Assembly: GCF_022808935.1 (NCBI RefSeq)
Contig: NZ_JAKZFR010000003.1
Coordinates: forward strand, 248,001-312,000
Direction: 5' to 3'
Length of the DNA stretch: 64,000 bases
DNA from: Geothrix sp. SG200
Lineage (GTDB): Bacteria; Acidobacteriota; Holophagae; Holophagales; Holophagaceae
Below are positions 46,935 through 56,792 of the stretch, in pieces; within the stretch, counting starts at the first letter, position 1, and each line of letters begins with the position of its first letter. The notes under the pieces are model-generated. The model saw nothing but the letters and a program-made list of their open reading frames with translations. It made no database searches and was not told the DNA's origin. A program made the position numbers and the translations under genes.

Positions 46935-47528
46935 CTAGAAACGCCAGGCCGCGCCCGCGCTCACGCGGACGAGGCGATGGGACAGCACCCGGGGGAACAG
47001 GCTCCCGTCCAGGCGCAGGAGCCACTGCTTGCCGAGCGGCGCTTCGACTCCGACGCCGAGGTGGGGGGTGAAGCCCGAGGTGGTGGTCTCGCCCGAATCC
47101 TTCAGGAAGACGTAGCCCTCGCCCCTGGTGGCGGTCCAGTAGGCCACCCCGGCGCGGCCGTAGGCAGACGCGGAACCGAGGGGAAGCCAGGCCATCCCCG
47201 TGAGGCTGGTGGTGCAGACGTCCCGGTCCTCCGGAACCCCACCGGCGATCACCGTGAAGTCCCCATAGAAGGTCTGGTCGATCTCGAAGCCCCAGGTCCG
47301 GCGCCAGCGCCCCCCTCCGTAGAGCGCGAAACCGGCCGTGGTGCGGGAATCCGGGGCCCCAGCGACAGGGAAGGCGGGCTTGTAGTCCGCCCAGACGAGT
47401 GAGAGTCCGACGAACCCCTCCCAATCCGGCTTCAGGGCCGGTTCCTGCCCGTGGAGCGGGAGGGCCAGGAGAAAGACGAGTGCCCCGCGCGATACGGCGG
47501 CGGGGCGGGCTGGCGAAGGCATGGCCAT
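46935..47528 (-). CDS. Predicted outer-membrane beta-barrel protein
   Basis: A 197-residue protein with a signal peptide ending near LPLHGQE. Amphipathic strands rich in Gly and aromatics follow (GFALYGGGRW, TWGFEIDQTFYGDF, SAYGRAGVAYWTA), ending in Phe as outer-membrane proteins do (AGAAWRF). It is probably a small 8-strand barrel. The start is ATG 47528, with GGGGGAT upstream. Family unknown. Confidence 0.7.
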   Translation of the reverse strand: MAMPSPARPAAVSRGALVFLLALPLHGQEPALKPDWEGFVGLSLVWADYKPAFPVAGAPDSRTTAGFALYGGGRWRRTWGFEIDQTFYGDFTVIAGGVPEDRDVCTTSLTGMAWLPLGSASAYGRAGVAYWTATRGEGYVFLKDSGETTTSGFTPHLGVGVEAPLGKQWLLRLDGSLFPRVLSHRLVRVSAGAAWRF

Positions 47529-47618
47529 GGGATCCCCCAGCTCTGAACCTCCAGATGCGGGGAACATAACCCATGAATCATCAATGCGCAAATCCCCAGG
47601 CGGGGGTGGCCGCCGCCC

Positions 47619-48659
47619 TCACTTGCCCAGGAACGTCTCCAGCGTCTTCTCCAGGTTCTCGCCCCGGAGCTGGGCGCCGCTGGCGACGATCTTGCCGTCG
47701 GGTCCGACGAGCAGGGGCTTGGGGATGCCCTTCACGCCGTAGGCGTCGGCCACGGGGTTCTGGAAGCCGCCCTCGATGAAGGCGTGCTTCCAGGGCATGG
47801 GCGTGGCGGCCTGCTTCCGGAAGGGCGCGATGTGCTCGACGCGGCGGTCGAAGGAGAGCGAGAGGATCTCGAAGGGCTTCGTCTTGAACCTGGCCCAGGC
47901 GGCGTGCATGGAGGGCATCTCCGCGCGGCAGGGCGGGCACCAGGTGGCCCAGAAGTCGATGAGCACGTACTTGCCCTTGAACGTGTCCAGCGTGTAGGTG
48001 GTCTTCGGATCGCCCAGGGCCTGGAGGTGGAAGGCCGGCGCCGGGCGCCCCAGGCCGGTCTTCAGCTCGCCCTCGAGGATGCCCTGGGCCTGCTTGGCCT
48101 GGCGGCTGCCGGCGAAGTCCTTCTGCAGGGTCTCGTAGGCGGGCTTCCAGGCGGCCTCGTCCTTGGCGTCCAGGCGCTCCCAGAAGTGCTCGAAGAGCAG
48201 GATGCGCCGGAGGTCCGCGTCGGCGTGCTTCGTCCGGGCCTCGGCCACGTAGGCGTCCCACCCCTTGGGATCAGCTTCGGCGCGGGCGGTGAGCAGGCCC
48301 GGGTCCAGGCTCCAGGCAGCGGCGGTGGGCGGCACCTCCTGCTTCAGCTGGGCCAGGAAGGCCGGGGCAGGCTCGGCCTTGGCCAGCTGGAGGTGGAACA
48401 GCTTGCTCACCAGCAGGGCCTGGCGCAGCTCCGGGGCTTTTTCGACCGCCAGGCGCGCGTCCAGGTCCGCCAGCTCCTTGGTGCAGTCGCCACGGAAGTC
48501 CTTGGTGTTGCCCCCGGCCTTCATGAAGGCGGCCCGGGCATCCATCACGGCCTTGGCCTTCGCCTTGGCCGCCTCGATCACGGCCTGGGGAGCCGGGGCA
48601 GGGGCGGGAGCCTGCAGGGCAGGCAGGGCCGTCATGAGGTAGATCAGGGGCAAGGGCAT
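47619..48659 (-). CDS. TlpA-type thioredoxin-fold protein
   Basis: A 346-residue exported protein: signal-like N-terminus, Ala/Pro stretch, an approximately 150-residue helical domain, then a TlpA/redoxin domain from about 205 with WATWCPPCR as the active CxxC. It resembles periplasmic thiol reductants that could be reduced by DsbD encoded about 700 bases away. A similar but one-Cys protein follows downstream on the same strand. Confidence 0.87.
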   Translation of the reverse strand: MPLPLIYLMTALPALQAPAPAPAPQAVIEAAKAKAKAVMDARAAFMKAGGNTKDFRGDCTKELADLDARLAVEKAPELRQALLVSKLFHLQLAKAEPAPAFLAQLKQEVPPTAAAWSLDPGLLTARAEADPKGWDAYVAEARTKHADADLRRILLFEHFWERLDAKDEAAWKPAYETLQKDFAGSRQAKQAQGILEGELKTGLGRPAPAFHLQALGDPKTTYTLDTFKGKYVLIDFWATWCPPCRAEMPSMHAAWARFKTKPFEILSLSFDRRVEHIAPFRKQAATPMPWKHAFIEGGFQNPVADAYGVKGIPKPLLVGPDGKIVASGAQLRGENLEKTLETFLGK

Positions 48660-48714
48660 GGATCCTCCGGCGGGGCGGGCAGCCTCGCCGGACAGGTTAC
48701 CTCAACAGATGAGG

Positions 48715-49467
48715 TCAGGGCTGGGCAGGTTTGGCGGGTTCGGCCGGGGCAGGTGCCGGGGCTGGCGCCGGGGCGGGCGTCCGCTCCCGCAGGGCCCGCA
48801 TCACGGCCTGGCCCACGAAGCCGTCATGGTAGCCGATGTGCAGTTCGGCCAGCTTCCCCTGGCGGTCCACCACGAACAGCACGGGCACGGAATAGATCAT
48901 GTCCATGAAGTTGGACGGACCCTCCTTGCCGAGGCCCGGCGTGAAGACGGGCATGTGGCTGCTCTCGAAGAACTGGCGGTTCCGGTTCATGAACTTGTGG
49001 ATGGCCCGCCAGCCGCCCTCGATGCCGCTGTCCTGCTGGTTCTCATCGAAATTGACCGCCAGGATCTCGAAACCGTACTGACCCTTCTTGGGATAGAGGC
49101 TGGCGAATTCCTGGAGCATCTTGGCGGAGGGATCGCAGTTCTTGCTCCAGAGGCCCACCAGCACCACCTTGCCCTTGAGGCTGGCGATGGAGATGCCCTT
49201 GCTCTTCTCGTCGTAGGCGGTGAAGGCGGAGACATCCTTCCGGCCCGCCGGAGGGAAGAACTGATCCCCTTGCTGGGAGTAGCGGACCGCGGAGGCGTCC
49301 GCCCCGTTGGGACCGTACTGGCTCTTGTCGTTCAGTTCCGTCTTCTCCTGCATGATCCTCGGGCAGGTGGGATCGCTGGGGCTGTTGGCGTTGTTGAAGA
49401 TGCCCTGGGCCCCCAGGGCGAGGCCGGAGAGGGCCAGGAGAAGGCTGCACAGCGGAGGACGCGACAC
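48715..49467 (-). CDS. Thioredoxin-fold protein with single active-site Cys
   Basis: A 250-residue exported protein, GTG start with GAGAGGT upstream and a signal peptide ending near LALGAQG. The redoxin fold has LVGLWSKNCDPSAKM, so only one of the two usual CxxC cysteines is kept, then VPVLFVVDRQGK. The tail is (PA)n. It could act as a peroxiredoxin-like or thiol-binding protein. It lies upstream of the TlpA gene (55-base gap). Confidence 0.8.
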   Translation of the reverse strand: MSRPPLCSLLLALSGLALGAQGIFNNANSPSDPTCPRIMQEKTELNDKSQYGPNGADASAVRYSQQGDQFFPPAGRKDVSAFTAYDEKSKGISIASLKGKVVLVGLWSKNCDPSAKMLQEFASLYPKKGQYGFEILAVNFDENQQDSGIEGGWRAIHKFMNRNRQFFESSHMPVFTPGLGKEGPSNFMDMIYSVPVLFVVDRQGKLAELHIGYHDGFVGQAVMRALRERTPAPAPAPAPAPAEPAKPAQP

Positions 49468-49499
49468 GGGACACCTCTCGGTGGGGATTGCCCACCACC

Positions 49500-50954
49500 C
49501 TATCGGAAGCTCCGCACCAGGTCGAGGCCCAGCTCCGTCCGGCTGAGGTACCAGGTGAGGGCCTGGCCATCCACCACGCGCACCTCCGCGTCCGGGAAGC
49601 GCCGCTGCAGCTCGGCCTGATGGCGGCGGTTGAAGCGGTAGGGCTCGGTGGGGAGGAGGATCAGCTCGGGCGAGAGGGCCGCCAGATCGTCGTCGGTCAG
49701 CGTCGGGTAGCGGTCCGGACCAAGGGGCGCCAGGCCCCCCGTCCGGAGGAGATCGCCCACGTAGGTGTCGGGCCCGGCGCTCATCCAGGGATCCTTCCAG
49801 ATGAGGGCGAGGGTGCGGGGACCTTTGCGGCGGCGTCCCGTCAGGGTGGCCTCCAGCGCCGAGGCGCGGGATTCGGCGACTTCGACGGCGCCGAGGCGCT
49901 CCCCCAGCTGGCGCAAGGCGCGCACGCAGTCCTTCACCGTCCGGATCTCCAGGGCCAGCCAGGGGATGCCCAGGGCCGTGAGGGCATCCGCGACCTCCTT
50001 CGGGTTCTCGTCCCGCTCGAGGATCACCAGGTCCGGCGCCAGATCGCGGATGCGGTCCAGATCCGGGTTCTTGGTTCCGCCCACGGCGGGCACCGTGTTG
50101 CGGATCCACTTCGGTTCGATGCAGTACCGCGTGCGCCCCGCCAGCCGAGCCGCCAGGCCCCACTGGACCAGCAGCTCCGTCACCGAGGGCACCAGGCTGA
50201 CGATGCGTTTCGGCGTGTCTCCCGTGGGAACCTGTGCGCCGGGTGCCGCGGCCTGAGGGCTGAGGACTGAGGCCTGAGGACTGGCGAGGGTCAGCCTCAC
50301 CCCCAGGTGCGGATCCTTGATCTGCCCCAGCCCCGTGGGACAGAGGTCCAGCAGAGGGCAGGCGGCACAGGCGGGGCGGCGGGCGTCGCAGGTGCGACGA
50401 CCGTGGAAGATGAGCTGGTGGTGCAGCTCGATCCAGTCCTCCCGGGGGAAGGCCTGGCAGAGGTCGGCCTCCACCTTCTCGGGCGTGGCGGCCTTCGAGA
50501 GGCCCAGGCGGCGCGCCACGCGGAAGATGTGGGTGTCCACGGCCAGGGCCGGCACGCCGAAGGCATTGGCCAGGACGACATTGGCGGTCTTCTGGCCCAC
50601 GCCGGGCAGGGCGCCCAGCTCCGCCGGGTCCGAAGGCACGCGGCCGCCGTGCTTCGCCATCAGCGCCTGTCCGAGTCCGATGAGGTTCTTCGCCTTGTTG
50701 CGGAAGAATCCGGTGGACTTGATGAGGGCTTCCAGTTCCTCCGTGCGGGCCGCCGCGAGGCTGGCCGCATTGGGGTAGCGGGCGAAGAGGGCCGGCGTGG
50801 TGAGGTTCACCCGGGCGTCCGTGCACTGGGCGCTGAGGATGGTCGCCACCACCAGCTGGAAGGGGTCCCGGTGGTCCAGGGCGCAGCGGGCGTCCGGGTA
50901 GGCGGCGCGCAGCCGGGCCTGGATCTCGCGGGGCTGGGGCTTGGAGGAGCGCAT
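49500..50954 (-). CDS. nth: Endonuclease III fused to BtuF-like metal-chelate receptor domain
   Basis: A 484-residue protein in two parts. Residues 1-210 are a complete Nth DNA glycosylase: HhH LPGVGQKTA with catalytic K122, D140 in VDTHIFRVARR, and the [4Fe-4S] cysteines C189, C196, C199, C205 in C-x6-C-x2-C-x5-C spacing. Residues about 249-484 are a helical-backbone metal receptor (RIVSLVPSVTELL, DLVILERDENP, TYVGDLLRTGG) like BtuF, but with no signal peptide. The linker (about 223-240, SPQASVLSPQ) is encoded by a 7-bp tandem repeat. The ATG at 50954 is preferred over upstream starts by homology to Nth. Confidence 0.88.
   Translation of the reverse strand: MRSSKPQPREIQARLRAAYPDARCALDHRDPFQLVVATILSAQCTDARVNLTTPALFARYPNAASLAAARTEELEALIKSTGFFRNKAKNLIGLGQALMAKHGGRVPSDPAELGALPGVGQKTANVVLANAFGVPALAVDTHIFRVARRLGLSKAATPEKVEADLCQAFPREDWIELHHQLIFHGRRTCDARRPACAACPLLDLCPTGLGQIKDPHLGVRLTLASPQASVLSPQAAAPGAQVPTGDTPKRIVSLVPSVTELLVQWGLAARLAGRTRYCIEPKWIRNTVPAVGGTKNPDLDRIRDLAPDLVILERDENPKEVADALTALGIPWLALEIRTVKDCVRALRQLGERLGAVEVAESRASALEATLTGRRRKGPRTLALIWKDPWMSAGPDTYVGDLLRTGGLAPLGPDRYPTLTDDDLAALSPELILLPTEPYRFNRRHQAELQRRFPDAEVRVVDGQALTWYLSRTELGLDLVRSFR
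50253..50287. repeat. 7-bp tandem repeat encoding the Nth-BtuF linker
   Basis: The + strand units are CTGAGGG, CTGAGGA, CTGAGGC, CTGAGGA and CTGGCGA. Because 7 is not a multiple of 3, successive units are read in different frames; on the minus strand all remain open, whereas + strand frames meet TGA. Gain or loss of a unit would disrupt the fusion. Confidence 0.8.
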
Positions 50955-51012
50955 GGGACCAGGATAGGGTGCCCGGCCCGCCGGGTGGATAAACTGGAAG
51001 GCGAGGTGCCGC

Positions 51013-51873
51013 ATGCCCACCACGCTCACGGGGAAGCTCGACTGCCAGGAGACCGCCCGGCACTACCTGGACCTGGTGCGCTTGAACGTGAAGAAGCTCG
51101 GCTTCTCCCCGGGCCTCGGCGTGATCCTCGGGAGCAGCGACCCCGGCAGCGTCACCTACCAGCGCTGGCTCATGAAGGACTGCGAGGACCTGGGCATCAA
51201 CGCCGCCGATCTGCGCGTGGAGAACGGCATGCAGCTCGTGAAGCTCATCGCCCGTCTCAACCAGGACGACAAGACCCACGGCGTGTTCATCTTCTATCCC
51301 CTGCGCTACCCCGAGATCAAGGATGACGAGGTCATGGACCTGGTGGATCCGGGCAAGGACATCGAGGGCCTCCACGCCATCAACATCGGGTTCCTGACCA
51401 AGTACCGGAAGCGCCTGGACGACGGCTCCCAGCACCGCTGCATGACGCCCTGCACCGCCCGGGCCATCGTGAAGACGCTGAAGCGTGGCTTCGGCGACGG
51501 CTGGATGGCCGGGAAGACCGTGCTCGTCATCAACGACAGCCTGCGCATCGGCCGGCCCCTCACGGCCATGGTGGCCAACCTCAAGGGCACGCCCATCCTC
51601 TGCCATGCCGCCACCAACCCGACGCACCTGGAGGGCTTCGTCCGCATGGCCGACGTCATCGTGAGCGCGGTGCCGGCCCCCGGCTACCAGATCCGCACGG
51701 ACTGGATCAAGGACGGCGCCCTCTGCTTCGACCTCAGCGGCGACGGCAACTTCGACTACGAGGCCCTGGAGCGCCGAGGGATCCTCTACACCGACACCAC
51801 GAAGAACAGCGTGGGCAAGGTCACCCGCGCCATGGCCCTGCTGAACCTCACCTACGCGGCGGGCGTGGAGTAG
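51013..51873 (+). CDS. Mtd1-type methylene-tetrahydrofolate dehydrogenase (FolD family, probably no cyclohydrolase)
   Basis: A 286-residue FolD-superfamily protein. Tyr49 is kept but the catalytic Lys expected four residues on is Leu53, with Lys at +6 (YQRWLMK). The same spacing, YATWTQK as I recall it, occurs in yeast NAD-dependent Mtd1, which lacks cyclohydrolase activity. KDIEGLHAIN, NDSLRIGRPL and VGKVTRAMALLN also align better with Mtd1 than with the usual KDVDGF, GRSxxVGxP and PGGVGPMT. It probably oxidises methylene-THF using NAD+ in one-carbon metabolism. Standard FolD is the alternative. Confidence 0.85.
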   Translation: MPTTLTGKLDCQETARHYLDLVRLNVKKLGFSPGLGVILGSSDPGSVTYQRWLMKDCEDLGINAADLRVENGMQLVKLIARLNQDDKTHGVFIFYPLRYPEIKDDEVMDLVDPGKDIEGLHAINIGFLTKYRKRLDDGSQHRCMTPCTARAIVKTLKRGFGDGWMAGKTVLVINDSLRIGRPLTAMVANLKGTPILCHAATNPTHLEGFVRMADVIVSAVPAPGYQIRTDWIKDGALCFDLSGDGNFDYEALERRGILYTDTTKNSVGKVTRAMALLNLTYAAGVE

Positions 51874-51919
51874 GCCTCCGCCGAGCCCCCAATACTGGCC
51901 CGACGTTCCCGAGGTTCCC

Positions 51920-53092
51920 ATGCGCCCCGCCGCCGCTCTCCTGGCCTGCCTCAGCCCCTTTCTCCCGGCCCTGGCCCAGCCTGCGCCGGCCGGTCCGGGA
52001 ACCCTGGCGACACCTCCCGCCGCGACTTCGGACCCGGTGCCCTACGACTTCCAGCGTCTGGTGGTCCAGAAACGGGCTGATTCGCCCCCGTACCCTCCCC
52101 TGGCCCGCTTTGCGAACCTGGAAGGTGAGGTTCTGCTGCGGCTGACCATCTCGCGCTCCGGGTGGGTGGAGCGGGCCGAGGCCCTGGAGGGCCCCAGGCT
52201 GCTTCGCGAGGCCGCGGCGGCCTATCTGCAAGCCTGGACCTTCCAGCCCGTCGTCATCGACGGGACACCCGCGCGGGTGCAATGTGACCTGCGGGTACCC
52301 TTCCACCTCGACGCTGCGCCAGGTGCGCCCCACCCCTCGGCGCCGCCATCCAAGGTGGTGGTGGAGGTGGCGCAGAACTCGACGGACGGACCGGCCGTCC
52401 TCGAAGCCGACCGACTGGAGGCCGAGCTCGGACGCTTCTTGGACCGGAGCGGCCTGGCCCGGGTGGCGCCCTTGGAGGCGGGACCGCAGGACGCCTTCCA
52501 CCTCGGGCTGCAGATCCAGGTCGTCCGGGCGGAGGGCCTGGCCATCTGCCAGGTCCGAGCGCGTTGCTCGCTCTGGGAGGACCGGGACCTGACCGAGAAC
52601 GTGCCCGGAAAACCGCCTCGCATCGCCTTCTTCAACCGGGTGGCTGGGAAGAAAGGCGATGCGGGTCTCCAGGATCTGGTCGCCGGTGTGCTCAGGCAGG
52701 GCCTGGACGAGGTCCTGGCGCCTCCGGCCCCGATTCGGGAGATCAAGCCGGCCGCGAAACCATCGGCGCCCGCTCCCGCCTCCACCGCGCCCGCACAAAA
52801 GGCCGGGGGCGTGGTGGACTTCGACTTCAGCCAGATCCGCGTGAAGCGCCAGCCGCCCGCGCCACCCTATCCGCCCGCGGCAAAGCTGGCCCGCGTTCAG
52901 GGCACGGTGGTCCTGGACCTGATCATCGATCCGCAGGGTGAGCCCGTCCGGGCCGAGGCGCGAGAAGGGCCGGTACCCCTGCTGTTCACCGCCATCAGCT
53001 ATGCCCTGGCCTGGCGGTTCGAGCCGGCCAAGCTCAACGGGGTGCCGCAGTATGCGCGGTTCCGCCTGACGATGCCTTTCCGGCTCCGCTGA
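51920..53092 (+). CDS. Periplasmic protein with two TonB C-terminal-like domains
   Basis: A 390-residue protein with a signal peptide (to about 19). Two TonB-C domains follow at about 52-128 and 305-390, each with the PPYPPLAR or PPYPPAAK start, a GxVxLxLxI strand and a conserved FxP ending (WTFQPVVIDG, WRFEPAKLNG). Between them lies an approximately 150-residue domain of unknown type and a Pro/Ala linker. There is no N-terminal membrane anchor typical of TonB, so it may be an envelope-spanning adaptor. Confidence 0.8.
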   Translation: MRPAAALLACLSPFLPALAQPAPAGPGTLATPPAATSDPVPYDFQRLVVQKRADSPPYPPLARFANLEGEVLLRLTISRSGWVERAEALEGPRLLREAAAAYLQAWTFQPVVIDGTPARVQCDLRVPFHLDAAPGAPHPSAPPSKVVVEVAQNSTDGPAVLEADRLEAELGRFLDRSGLARVAPLEAGPQDAFHLGLQIQVVRAEGLAICQVRARCSLWEDRDLTENVPGKPPRIAFFNRVAGKKGDAGLQDLVAGVLRQGLDEVLAPPAPIREIKPAAKPSAPAPASTAPAQKAGGVVDFDFSQIRVKRQPPAPPYPPAAKLARVQGTVVLDLIIDPQGEPVRAEAREGPVPLLFTAISYALAWRFEPAKLNGVPQYARFRLTMPFRLR

Positions 53093-53107
53093 AGGCCGGG
53101 TCGGCGC

Positions 53108-53557
53108 TCAGAATCGGCAGGTGAGGGCCAGCCCCAGGGCGCTCCGCCGGCGGGGCGTGATCCCGTCGGTGAAGGGGCGTTCCAGGTGCTCGCCTTCGAG
53201 GCTGAGGGCCCAGGACGGGTGGAAGGCCCAGCCCACGCGGAGGCGGGGGCCGAGGAAGGCGCCCTCGCCGGGCGGCACCTCCACGATGGCGCCGAATCCC
53301 ACGAACAGCGCGTTGGCGGTGGCGTTGGCGTCCATGACAAACCGCAGGCTGGTGTCGCCGTCGTCCCAGTGCCGGGCCCCGAGGCCGACGCCCAGGTGGA
53401 GGTGCGCGAAATCGCCCTGGTCCCGCACCTGGAGGTCGGTGATGGGAACTGTGAACTCCGCGGCGGTGGCCTTGGGCTGGCGGACCACCGACACCATGGC
53501 CGTCTGGGCCCCGAGGGGGAGGGCGGAAAGGATGAGCAGGGGGATCCAGAGGCGCAT
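53108..53557 (-). CDS. Small predicted outer-membrane protein
   Basis: A 149-residue protein with a signal peptide ending near LPLGAQT. Amphipathic strands (HLHLGVGLGARHW, GPRLRVGWAFHPSWALSLEGEHLE) and a terminal Phe (LGLALTCRF) suggest a short barrel or half-barrel. It resembles the acyloxyacyl-hydrolase or OmpW-like small barrels only in overall pattern. Family unknown. It is convergent with the TonB-domain gene. Confidence 0.65.
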   Translation of the reverse strand: MRLWIPLLILSALPLGAQTAMVSVVRQPKATAAEFTVPITDLQVRDQGDFAHLHLGVGLGARHWDDGDTSLRFVMDANATANALFVGFGAIVEVPPGEGAFLGPRLRVGWAFHPSWALSLEGEHLERPFTDGITPRRRSALGLALTCRF

Positions 53558-53587
53558 GTCCCGTTTACTGCCGGGCGCGCAGGCGGT

Positions 53588-54136
53588 TTATCGGGTCCGC
53601 CATTCCTCCGCCAGCATCCCGTACACCGCATGATCCACGTAGCGGCCCACGAGGCGCTCGGCCTGGCGCAGTGTGCCCTCGTGGCGGAAGCCCAGGCGCT
53701 CGGGAATGGCGCGGCTGCGGCGGTTGCGGATGCCGGCGCGGATCTCCACTCGGTTGAGCTTGAGGGCGTAGAAGCCGTGGCGGGCCAGGGCCGACACGGC
53801 GGCGGTCATCAGGCCGTGGCCCTCGGCCTCCCGCGCCAGCCAGTAGCCGATGCCTCCGCTGCGGTTGGCCGGATCGAGCCACACGAAACCCGCCACGCCC
53901 ACCAGGTCGCCCTTCCACCAGAGGCCGAAGGGCAGGGCCATGCCCGCGCGCGCCTGGGCCCGCACCCTCAGGATGTAGGCACGGGAATCCTGCACGCTGC
54001 GGTTGTCGTCGGGCCAGGGCAGCCAGTGGCGCAGGCGGTCCCGGTTGGCGTCCACGAGGGCGAACAGGGGGCGGGCGTCGCGCAGGCAGAGGGGGCGCAG
54101 TTCCAGGGCGCGCCCGGCCTTGATCGCCTCCGGCAT
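53588..54136 (-). CDS. GNAT acetyltransferase (RimJ/RimL type)
   Basis: A 182-residue protein. It has LELRPLCLRDARPLFALVDANR at the start, WLPWPDDNRS, and the acetyl-CoA region (GGIGYWLAREAEGHGLMTAAV), then IRAGIRNRRSRAIPERLGFRHEG, which is the RimJ/L pattern of N-terminal ribosomal or small-molecule acetyltransferases. The ATG at 54136 lies 8 bases after the kdsA stop, so it is likely co-transcribed with kdsA. Confidence 0.85.
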   Translation of the reverse strand: MPEAIKAGRALELRPLCLRDARPLFALVDANRDRLRHWLPWPDDNRSVQDSRAYILRVRAQARAGMALPFGLWWKGDLVGVAGFVWLDPANRSGGIGYWLAREAEGHGLMTAAVSALARHGFYALKLNRVEIRAGIRNRRSRAIPERLGFRHEGTLRQAERLVGRYVDHAVYGMLAEEWRTR

Positions 54137-54144
54137 CGCGACCC

Positions 54145-54993
54145 TCACTTGCCGGCGGGATCGAGCTGCGCCGCGGCGCGGCCAGCCCTCCACAGGACCA
54201 GCAGCTCATCGAGCAGGGCGCCGAACTGCTCGAGGCGCATGGCGTTCGGGCCGTCACTGAAGGCCTTCTCGGGGCAGTCGTGCACCTCGAAAAAGAAGCC
54301 GTCCACGGCCGTGGCCGCGGCCCGCGCCAGGGTGGGGATCATCTCCCGGGCGCCGCCGGTGGCCTTGCCCAGGGCACCGGGCTTCTGCACGCTGTGAGTG
54401 GCGTCGAAGATCACGGGGCAGCCCGTCTTGCGCAGGTGGGGGAAACTCTGGAAGTCCACCACCAGGTTGCCGTAGCCGAAGCTGGAGCCGCGCTCGGTCA
54501 CCCACACGGGGCCGTGGCCGGGCACTGACTTCAGCTTCTCCACGCCGTGCTGGAGGTCCCAGGGGGCGAGGAACTGGCCCTTCTTCAGGTTCACGGTGCG
54601 GCCCGTGGCCGCGGCGGCCAGCAGCAGGTCCGTCTGGCGGCAGAGGAAGGCGGGGATCTGGAGGACGTCCACGGCCTGGGCCGCGGGGCCGCACTGGCTG
54701 CTCTCGTGGACGTCCGTGAGCACGGGCACGCCGTAGCGGCTGCGGATCTCCGCCAGGATGTCCAGGCCTTCCTCCATGCCCGGCCCCCGGTGGCTGTCGC
54801 GGCTGGTGCGGTTGGCCTTGTCGAAGCTGGACTTGTAGATGAAGGGGATGCCACGGGCCTCGGCCAGGTCGCGCAGGCTCGACGCCATCAGGTGGGCATG
54901 CTCCCGGCTCTCGATGACGCAGGGCCCCGCGATCAGGAAGAAACTCTGGCCGGTGAAGGGTCGGGCGAAGTCCATGTGCACCTCTGCCTGCAT
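54145..54993 (-). CDS. kdsA: 3-deoxy-D-manno-octulosonate 8-phosphate synthase
   Basis: Condenses PEP and arabinose 5-phosphate to KDO 8-phosphate for LPS. The 282-residue protein has the family signatures FLIAGPCVIESREHA, YKSSFDKANRTS, NLKKGQFLAPWD and VIFDATHSVQ. The metal-site Cys typical of class II enzymes appears at AGPCVIE. The other KDO genes are not in the window. Its upstream region is shared with the divergent Lrp-type gene. Confidence 0.95.
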   Translation of the reverse strand: MQAEVHMDFARPFTGQSFFLIAGPCVIESREHAHLMASSLRDLAEARGIPFIYKSSFDKANRTSRDSHRGPGMEEGLDILAEIRSRYGVPVLTDVHESSQCGPAAQAVDVLQIPAFLCRQTDLLLAAAATGRTVNLKKGQFLAPWDLQHGVEKLKSVPGHGPVWVTERGSSFGYGNLVVDFQSFPHLRKTGCPVIFDATHSVQKPGALGKATGGAREMIPTLARAAATAVDGFFFEVHDCPEKAFSDGPNAMRLEQFGALLDELLVLWRAGRAAAQLDPAGK

Positions 54994-55093
54994 TTTACCT
55001 CGACCCGGGCCATTTACGGGTTGTCATCCGTATTGCCGAACCTTCTAGCACAGTGTTCAATGATTCTCATCAACCCCATTCCCGGAGTCCAGC

Positions 55094-55600
55094 ATGGCGA
55101 AGACGTTGATGGAAGACGATCTGAACCGGCGCCTGGTGGCCCTGCTCCAGCAGGAAGGCCGCATGAGCCACGCGGAACTGGCGGAGCGGCTCGGCGTGAG
55201 CCGCCCCACCATCATCGACCGCGTGAAGCGCCTGGAAGCCGACGGCATCCTGGCGGGCTACGCGGCCCGCGTGGCCCCGGCGGCCGTGAACAAGCCCAAC
55301 GTGGCCTTCGTGGCGGTGCGCTACAAGGACAACAACGAGGCCATCGAGCAGCGCTTCATCAAGGCGCTCGAGGACGAGCCGGACATCCTGGAGGCCCACA
55401 CGGTGGCCGGCGAGGATGCCCTCATGCTCAAGGTGGTGGCGGACACCCCCGCGGGCATCGCCGAGCGCCTGCGCCGCATCCGCGCGCTGGGTCCCATGGT
55501 GACCACGCGCACCACCATCGTGCTGGAGACCCACTGGGAGAAGGCCGGTCCGAGCCCCTTCCCGGCCGGCGAGGCCGCCGGGAAGAAGGCCAAGAAGTGA
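55094..55600 (+). CDS. Lrp/AsnC-family transcriptional regulator
   Basis: A 168-residue regulator: N-terminal winged helix (LNRRLVALLQQEGRMSHAELAERLGVSRPTI) followed by an AsnC/RAM ligand-binding domain (about 70-150, ILEAHTVAGEDALMLKVVA). The basic C-terminal tail (GKKAKK) is unusual. A TTGTCA (55021-55026) upstream could be the -35 of its promoter with a weak -10. The next gene starts at a GTG inside its stop. It likely controls the following monooxygenase-like and exporter genes. Confidence 0.9.
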   Translation: MAKTLMEDDLNRRLVALLQQEGRMSHAELAERLGVSRPTIIDRVKRLEADGILAGYAARVAPAAVNKPNVAFVAVRYKDNNEAIEQRFIKALEDEPDILEAHTVAGEDALMLKVVADTPAGIAERLRRIRALGPMVTTRTTIVLETHWEKAGPSPFPAGEAAGKKAKK

Positions 55601-55923
55601 TCGCGCGAACCCCCGAGCCGCCCTACCTCGCCGTCATCTTCAGCAGCCAGCGCACCCCGGGCGACCAGGGCTATGGCGTCATGGCCGACCGCATGGTGGA
55701 GCTGGCCCGCTCGCAGCCCGGCTTCCTCGGCGTGGAGAGCGCCCGGGACGCCGAGGGCTTCGGCATCACCGTGTCCTACTGGAAGGACGAGGCCTCCATC
55801 GCCGCGTGGAAGGCCCACGCGGAGCACGCCGCGGCCCAGCGCCTGGGCCGGGAGCGGTGGCACGGATCCTTCCACCTGCGGGTCTGCCGCGTGGAGCGCG
55901 AAGCGGGCATGGGCGCGCCCTGA
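55597..55923 (+). CDS. Antibiotic-biosynthesis-monooxygenase (ABM)-like protein
   Basis: A 108-residue ferredoxin-like alpha/beta-barrel protein of the ABM/YgiN type, with YLAVIFSSQRT, SQPGFLGVESARDAEGFGITVSYWKDEASIAAWK as the diagnostic core (given here in two parts), and ending HLRVCRVE. The GTG start overlaps the Lrp stop (GTGA), and the stop overlaps the exporter ATG. Substrate unknown. Confidence 0.82.
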   Translation: MIARTPEPPYLAVIFSSQRTPGDQGYGVMADRMVELARSQPGFLGVESARDAEGFGITVSYWKDEASIAAWKAHAEHAAAQRLGRERWHGSFHLRVCRVEREAGMGAP

Positions 55924-56792
55924 TGCTCGCCTGGCTCGCCTACCTCACCGTGGCCGTGGTGTGGGGCTCCACCTACTTCGCCATCGCCCTGGGCCTGGAA
56001 TCCTTCACGCCCTACGGCCTGGTGGCGGCGCGCTTCTCCCTCGCCTCGGTGCTGGCCCTGGCGATGGGGCGTCTGCGGCGGGAGCCCTGGCCGCCGGCCC
56101 GGGAAGTGGGCCACCTCATGATCGTGGGGGCCCTCCTGCTGGGAGGTGCCAACGCGCTGGTCTCCTGGGCCGAGCTGCACGTCTCCTCGGGCCTTGCGGC
56201 GGTGCTGGCGGCCCTGGTGCCCCTGTGGCTGGCGGTCTTCTCCATGGCGAAGCAGCCGCTGGGCCCCAAGGGGTGGATGGGGCTCCTGCTGGGGTTGGCC
56301 GGCGTCTGCGTGCTGGTGTGGCCCTCGGGCGGCACGCGCGTTCACATGGGCGGCCTGGCGGCCCTGGTGGCGGCGCCCATCATCTGGTCCTGGGGCACGC
56401 TGCACGGCAAGCACTTCGTCCACGGCGGCGGGCTGCTCACCAACGTGGGCATCCAGATGGCCACCGCCGCGGCCATCGGGCTCACGGTCGCGCCCCTCGC
56501 GGGCGGGTTCCTGCGGGGACCGCTCACCCACAAGGCCGTGGGGGCCGCGGTCTACCTGGCCCTGTTCGGCTCCATGCTGGCCTTCTCCGCCTACGTCTAC
56601 CTGGCCAAGGCCTGGCCGCCGGCGAAGATGGGCACCTATGCCTACCTGAACCCGGTGGTGGCCGTGCTGCTGGGGGGCCTCATCCTCCACGAGCCCTTCG
56701 GCCCGCGCCAGGTCCTGGGCATGGGTGTCATCCTGGGAGCGGTGGCGCTGGTGCAGCTGCGGCCGGCGACTCCCGCGGCCGCGAAGGGCTGA
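55923..56792 (+). CDS. EamA/DMT-family exporter
   Basis: A 289-residue protein with ten helices in two EamA repeats: VVWGSTYFAIALGL at the N-terminus, AALVPLWLAVFS at the end of repeat 1, and YLNPVVAVLLGGLILHEP near the end of repeat 2. It overlaps the preceding gene by one base and completes an Lrp-ABM-EamA cassette. Amino-acid or metabolite efflux controlled by the Lrp protein is plausible. Its 3' end overlaps the convergent lipoprotein gene by 65 bases. Confidence 0.9.
   Translation: MLAWLAYLTVAVVWGSTYFAIALGLESFTPYGLVAARFSLASVLALAMGRLRREPWPPAREVGHLMIVGALLLGGANALVSWAELHVSSGLAAVLAALVPLWLAVFSMAKQPLGPKGWMGLLLGLAGVCVLVWPSGGTRVHMGGLAALVAAPIIWSWGTLHGKHFVHGGGLLTNVGIQMATAAAIGLTVAPLAGGFLRGPLTHKAVGAAVYLALFGSMLAFSAYVYLAKAWPPAKMGTYAYLNPVVAVLLGGLILHEPFGPRQVLGMGVILGAVALVQLRPATPAAAKG

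Follow-up and report, generated by a model that had tools for sequence, protein, structure and literature searches.

A conserved FolD-fold protein without the catalytic lysine in Geothrix and its relatives, a predicted NAD-preferring methylene-THF dehydrogenase

The mtd-like gene, its neighbors and its predicted fold

The window, the whole 64,000-nucleotide stretch of Geothrix DNA that was analyzed and to which all positions refer, contains a gene, here called mtd-like, whose product resembles FolD. The gene, the sites discussed below and the adjoining frames are as follows.

49503..51029, minus strand: endonuclease III (HhH-GPD) followed by a periplasmic-binding-protein domain (Peripla_BP_2) in one frame of 509 aa; divergent conserved neighbor
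51013..51873, plus strand: mtd-like gene, ATG to TAG, 286 aa; predicted FolD-fold methylene-THF dehydrogenase without the catalytic Lys
51157..51177, plus strand: YQRWLMK motif, residues 49 to 55, with Tyr49 retained and Leu53 at the place of Lys54 (E. coli numbering), from the alignment
51292..51294, plus strand: Phe94 at the Gln98 site, from the alignment
51364..51366, plus strand: Glu118 at the Asp121 site (KDIEGL), from the alignment
51532..51540, plus strand: Asn174-Asp175-Ser176, with Asp at the NADP 2'-phosphate Arg (human Arg173), from the alignment; triad as given in the excerpt of PMC3368264
51604..51609, plus strand: His198-Ala199, the Ser of the 2'-phosphate triad being gone, from the alignment
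51920-53092, plus strand: TonB C-terminal domain protein with two such stretches, 390 aa

The divergent frame has a counterpart at 14 other loci of the family Holophagaceae, 11 of them with lengths of about 466 to 499 aa. If real, the joining of endonuclease III and Peripla_BP_2 in one frame is an unusual fusion. No folate link was seen among the neighbors examined (nth, TonB-like, DAHP-synthase-family, AsnC-type regulator, thioredoxin-like and acetyltransferase genes), and the Rfam search found no family at threshold within 47000-56000. A folate operon or riboswitch beside the mtd-like gene was therefore rejected for this interval.

The mtd-like protein exceeded the cut-offs of both Pfam domains of the FolD/MTHFD superfamily, PF00763 (69.5 bits; cut-off, 32.8) and PF02882 (69.2 bits; cut-off, 27), indicating that it belongs to this superfamily. 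The NCBIfam FolD models scored well under their cut-offs (best, 124.1 against 401, among 25 of the 30 matched models), and by this measure the protein is not a bifunctional FolD. The cofactor domain retains its S-x-x-x-G-x-P motif. An AlphaFold2 model built from 36 alignment rows had a mean pLDDT of 92.6 and a pTM of 0.90, with its weakest block at residues 131-140 (61). VIA-align superposed model residues 7-286 equally well, by Z value, on yeast Mtd1 (1edz) and on FolD/MTHFD structures. The match to 1edz (Z of 32.1, 2.2 Å, 274 residues) was the longest alignment among the matches listed, and its Z value lies inside the range of 29.5-33.0 of the FolD/MTHFD entries listed, except 5nhs (19.1). 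Foldseek placed 1edz at rank 46, below 45 FolD/MTHFD chains. The fold search was thus rejected as a means of discriminating between Mtd1 and FolD.

Residues of the folate and cofactor sites

The active-site residues were compared in an alignment of 58 rows, comprising 17 Holophagaceae, 9 Elusimicrobiota, 6 Mtd1-type (including yeast) and 26 FolD sequences. The Elusimicrobiota rows include L114, whose record is titled 'bacterium', and four from the phylum of G100. The Lys column of Y-x-x-x-K contains Lys in all 26 FolD rows, whereas it is occupied by Leu53 in 17/17 Holophagaceae, by Ile (8/9) or Val (1/9) in Elusimicrobiota and by Thr in 6/6 Mtd1-type rows. The stretch from Tyr49 to residue 55 is free of gaps, and the register is therefore secure. 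The mtd-like protein thus lacks the Lys of bifunctional FolD, and the sequence-only reading was right that Leu replaces it with the spacing of yeast Mtd1. In yeast Mtd1 the equally spaced motif is YATWTQK, with Thr and not Leu at this place.

The two other catalytic positions are also changed. At the Gln98 column, Phe was found in all 17 Holophagaceae rows, Leu, Met or Phe in all nine Elusimicrobiota rows and Tyr in all six Mtd1-type rows, and at the Asp121 column all 32 Lys-less rows have Glu. Both Gln98 and Asp121 are present in 21/26 FolD rows, and both are absent from the mtd-like protein (Phe94 and Glu118). The FolD rows without Gln98 and those without Asp121 are the same five, L147-L151, from Elusimicrobiota genomes with a second copy. 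Tyr49 is conserved in 32/32 Lys-less rows. Yeast Mtd1 likewise lacks the catalytic Lys, Gln and Asp, and in the loss of all three the mtd-like protein agrees with it.

According to the available part of PMC5688156, E. coli FolD K54N retains about 19% of the dehydrogenase activity with undetectable cyclohydrolase, and Q98H retains about 8% and about 1%, respectively. For Bombyx mori MTHFD, the excerpt of PMC6443876 gives cyclohydrolase efficiencies of 0.097 for K53A, 0.22 for Q97A and 0.13 for the wild type, with Y49A not detectable and D120A without measurable efficiency for methylene-THF. Compared with D120A, the carboxylate is preserved in the mtd-like protein, because Asp is here replaced by Glu. 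The E. coli mutants were given more weight than those of B. mori because they are nearer to the bacterial enzyme. The replacement of Lys, Gln and Asp, together with the E. coli data, argues for the dehydrogenase-only function that had been proposed from the sequence, and the B. mori K53A and Q97A data keep this claim short of certain. The same two mutants, which keep cyclohydrolase activity, would fit an enzyme that is still bifunctional like FolD, with water or another residue standing in for Lys. We consider such an enzyme unlikely, given the undetectable cyclohydrolase of E. coli K54N and the fact that Lys, Gln and Asp are all altered together. That the protein is a noncatalytic, folate-binding pseudoenzyme or regulator, as the loss of the three named active-site residues could also be read, is scarcely credible: Tyr49 and the S-x-x-x-G-x-P motif are retained, the pterin position still bears a carboxylate, and yeast Mtd1, an NAD-dependent dehydrogenase by its PDB title, lacks the same three residues.

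The NADP 2'-phosphate is bound by Arg, Ser and His, according to the part of PMC3368264 available. In the Holophagaceae rows, Arg is replaced by Asp (D175) in 17/17 and Ser is absent in 17/17; the His of the triad is retained as His198 in the mtd-like protein, and position 199 is variable (A, Q, H, L or R). In the Elusimicrobiota rows (9/9), Asn replaces the Arg and Asp (D199) the Ser. The bacterial Mtd1-type rows have Asp (D198) at the His place (5/5), and so does yeast Mtd1, for which the residue was taken from a separate comparison since this stretch is masked in the 58-row alignment. Every Lys-less group therefore has an acid in the triad, each at its own position (D175, D199 or D198).

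The loss of Arg173 and Ser197, with Asp at the place of Arg, suggests that the mtd-like protein prefers NAD, in line with the sequence-only reading. His198 and the variability of position 199, compared with the Asp found in 9/9 Elusimicrobiota rows, would also suit a dehydrogenase-only copy that uses NADP or both cofactors and serves for dosage or another expression condition. This is quite unlikely, as neither the replacement of Arg by Asp nor the loss of Ser has an exception among the Holophagaceae rows.

Partner genes, conservation and proposed role

The sequence-only reading had expected that a separate cyclohydrolase would be needed and that methylene-THF oxidation would yield NADH instead of NADPH. 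When the genome was searched for fchA and a second folD, four PF02882 matches were found, two of them above the cut-off: the mtd-like gene and a canonical FolD on another contig, C1 (209.5 bits), in which Lys, Gln, Asp, Arg, His and Ser are all present. The genome also has one FTHFS (Fhs), one FTCD_C match and GcvP (two adjacent matches). A stand-alone fchA as the required cyclohydrolase was rejected, because the sole FTCD_C match sits in a 775-aa open frame, whose N-terminal part we take to resemble glutamate formimidoyltransferase. With a canonical FolD in the genome, no further cyclohydrolase is required and NADPH production is still possible, so that neither expectation held. Judged from its gene content, the cell should have both NADH and NADPH routes.

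When full and partial matches above 110 bits are counted, the mtd-like gene is present in 63 of 77 family genomes (42/47 in the genus itself and 21/30 in other genera), and the carriers include 0.9-1.2 Mb genomes of the family. FolD was searched for in 45 of the 63 carriers, namely those at least 90% complete and five of 72-96% with a single match earlier. It was found in 40, as a full match (>200 bits) in 39 and a partial one at a contig end in 1. In the small genomes G061 and G110, FolD was found but FTCD_C gave no match. The five carriers among the 45 with no FolD match (G004, G010, G021, G081 and G083) are draft MAGs, two of them at least 95% complete. These five would be expected if the mtd-like enzyme were still bifunctional, and the retention of FolD in 40/45 carriers argues against this. 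A further family MAG (G096; 94% complete) yielded neither FolD nor the second copy.

Outside the family, the gene was found in 0/23 genomes (16 of the same class and 7 of the same phylum). A scan of genome contigs yielded 64 loci, some of them Holophagaceae-like, others from Elusimicrobiota (38-42% identity) and a third set, Mtd1-like, from Desulfuromonadales and Myxococcales (28-32%); as it relied on two short peptide patterns, the scan is a weak test of absence elsewhere. Loci at 99% are present in G. terrae and G. paludis. Some Holophagaceae-like records carry other labels, e.g., 'Deltaproteobacteria' (L100) and 'Bacillota' (L103). The mtd-like gene occurs in 5 of the 149 Elusimicrobiota genomes, with matches above 360 bits.

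Among 11 pairs, the three closest had dN/dS values of 0.08, 0.14 and 0.15 for the mtd-like gene and 0.13, 0.10 and 0.12 for FolD, indicating purifying selection on close pairs similar to that on FolD. Seven deeper pairs, with doubtful synonymous distances, ranged from 0.22 to 0.67 for the mtd-like gene and from 0.22 to 0.40 for FolD, and one pair was saturated. Since the gene is kept in 63 of the 77 family genomes and its dN/dS is low, the loss of Lys is more than chance. The mtd-like gene is an old paralogue, a conserved second copy.

The partner FolD proteins differ between the two phyla. Nine Elusimicrobiota carriers of the second copy were found, and in 8/8 of those whose FolD was examined (L147-L151 and L192-L194) this FolD keeps Lys54 and has Glu at Asp121 and Glu, Asp or Val at Gln98. 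This drift looks like a split of dehydrogenase and cyclohydrolase between the copies, and lineage alone may explain it. The drift is confounded with lineage, as noncarriers show parts of the same changes: among 22 examined, Glu occurs at Asp121 in 3, at Gln98 in 12 and at both in 1 (L201). As a general rule, partner-FolD drift was rejected, because it does not hold in Holophagaceae: Lys, Gln and Asp are intact in all 22 FolD sequences checked, of which 19 come from this family and 15 of those 19 from carriers. The Elusimicrobiota genomes G117 and G152 have one listed FolD match each (L207 and L211), with Gln at the catalytic Lys and His at the NADP Arg.

The distribution also bears on the idea of a bypass dehydrogenase that would withstand carolacton and other natural inhibitors of FolD and would be kept by bacteria that meet myxobacteria. 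Cys11, Leu53 and Phe94 of the mtd-like protein stand at E. coli positions G8, presumably the Gly of the DGK motif, K54 and Q98. These are the positions of the E. coli carolacton-resistance point mutants, and the residual dehydrogenase activity of K54N is fully carolacton insensitive, according to the available part of PMC5688156. All three lie in or near the folate pocket and may therefore change with any loss of cyclohydrolase activity. Carriage of the gene tracks lineage, and its retention in the 0.9-1.2 Mb genomes is unexpected for an antibiotic shield. The chance that the mtd-like protein is such a bypass appears very small.

We consider it likely, from the residues and gene content, that the mtd-like protein is a dehydrogenase-only, NAD-preferring methylene-THF dehydrogenase. 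Points against this reading are the B. mori mutants, the retained His198, the Foldseek rank of 1edz and the neighbors examined, among which no folate link was seen. In the scheme that we infer from the residues, predicted fold, conservation and partner genes, the two activities, the cofactor and the direction of flux would be as follows. The folate would be held by Tyr49 and Glu118. With Leu53 and Phe94 at their places, the Lys/Gln pair needed for hydrolysis would be missing, and Asp175 in the NDS loop would keep out the 2'-phosphate of NADP. Methylene-THF, supplied by glycine cleavage or serine, would be oxidized by the mtd-like enzyme to methenyl-THF with formation of NADH. The cyclohydrolase step and the oxidation linked to NADPH would fall to the canonical FolD (NADP, bifunctional), and formate and ATP could be regained through Fhs.

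A wider interpretation is offered tentatively and is less likely than not: bacterial one-carbon metabolism may have a redox-split node, in which an NADP FolD is joined by a Lys-less NAD dehydrogenase that probably predates the Holophagaceae radiation and is common to some Elusimicrobiota, with a triad acid of its own in each group and with a drifted FolD in Elusimicrobiota. If the proposed role is true, the choice of which of the two FolD-fold enzymes is expressed would set the pyridine nucleotide obtained from methylene-THF in Geothrix and its relatives, and models in which a generic 'FolD' produces NADPH would then be wrong for this family. The Mtd1 way of working would be no fungal specialty, and Leu, Ile, Thr and Lys at one position would form a natural series for probing the role of the lysine.

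Comparison with Mtd1 and other FolD-fold enzymes

Bacterial FolD, which is bifunctional and NADP dependent, shares both Pfam domains, the whole-chain fold, Tyr49 and Cys147 with the mtd-like protein, whereas its Lys54, Gln98, Asp121, Arg173 and Ser197 are each replaced there. The mammalian MTHFD2 and MTHFD2L (NAD(P), bifunctional) were compared by fold alone, with Z values up to 33.0; the excerpt of PMC11064299 describes them as dehydrogenase/cyclohydrolases. The same excerpt credits Mtd1 with 'only cyclohydrolase function', while the reference titles given there name an NAD-dependent dehydrogenase. Mtd1 was taken as the latter, because these titles and the PDB title say so.

Yeast Mtd1 (NAD-dependent 5,10-methylene-THF dehydrogenase; PDB 1edz/1ee9) has the same fold as the mtd-like protein. 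In both, Lys, Gln and Asp are replaced, with Glu for Asp, and the 2'-phosphate triad contains an acid. Yeast Mtd1 differs in having Thr instead of Leu at the Lys place and Tyr instead of Phe at the Gln place, and it keeps the Arg of the triad, which is Asp in the mtd-like protein. In phmmer, the mtd-like protein was about equally near FolD (95 bits) and Mtd1 (89 bits).

Among the columns conserved at 80% per group, 18 are identical in all groups and 3 different in all; 9 join both Lys-less groups against FolD, 9 join the mtd-like group and FolD against the Mtd1-type, and 1 joins the Mtd1-type and FolD against the mtd-like group. The sequence-only reading that the neighboring loops follow Mtd1 stands for Glu118, Asn174, Pro221 and Asn246, at which the mtd-like protein agrees with yeast Mtd1 and with the Mtd1-type rows from bacteria against FolD; it does not extend to the nine columns that side with FolD. 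At Tyr95 and Ile117 the agreement is with the bacterial rows, yeast Mtd1 having Phe and Val there. The loop at about 131-142 was rejected as a common Mtd1 marker, since it contains no such 80% column and an Elusimicrobiota FolD (L185) has a similar loop.

In an unrooted tree without an outgroup, a branch with 100/100 support separates all Lys-less rows from FolD. Yeast Mtd1 groups with the Desulfuromonadales/Myxococcales sequences (100/100), and the Holophagaceae group with the Elusimicrobiota (100/98). Given the missing outgroup and a program warning about long branches, the tree is compatible with either one loss of Lys or two. The mtd-like protein lies on a separate Holophagaceae/Elusimicrobiota branch in this tree and is probably not a plain Mtd1 orthologue; it probably works like Mtd1, and the suggested Mtd1 identity is supported for the mode of action. 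On a simple reading, which is no proof, this branch is the less altered of the two Lys-less branches.

Mtd1-type proteins were found in Desulfuromonadales (L117, L118, L119 and L121) and in one Myxococcales MAG (L120). They resemble the mtd-like protein in lacking Lys and in having Glu at the Asp place, and they differ in having Tyr, not Phe, at the Gln place, in being far nearer to yeast Mtd1 and in forming a branch apart. L117, from Desulfuromonadaceae, scored 190 bits against 1edz and 54 against the best FolD, indicating that Mtd1-near proteins exist in bacteria. FolD is present in all four Desulfuromonadales carriers, none of which gave an FTCD_C match. In the Myxococcales MAG, G108, a draft with no FolD besides the Mtd1-type match, an FTCD_C gene converges on the Mtd1-type (Thr-type) gene; it is cut by the contig end, and FchA and FtcD are therefore indistinguishable. 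Across 57 Myxococcales genomes, FolD matches above 200 bits occur in 53, a partial one in 1 and none in 2, and only G108 has the Mtd1-type alone. The arrangement in this single draft genome is what would be expected for a dehydrogenase-only enzyme.

No bacterial Mtd1-type enzyme was named in the literature searched, among the matches listed and with most subscription papers outside its coverage. The chemistry proposed here is already known; as far as these limited searches tell, the novelty lies in a bacterial branch that is old and that occurs together with an intact FolD.
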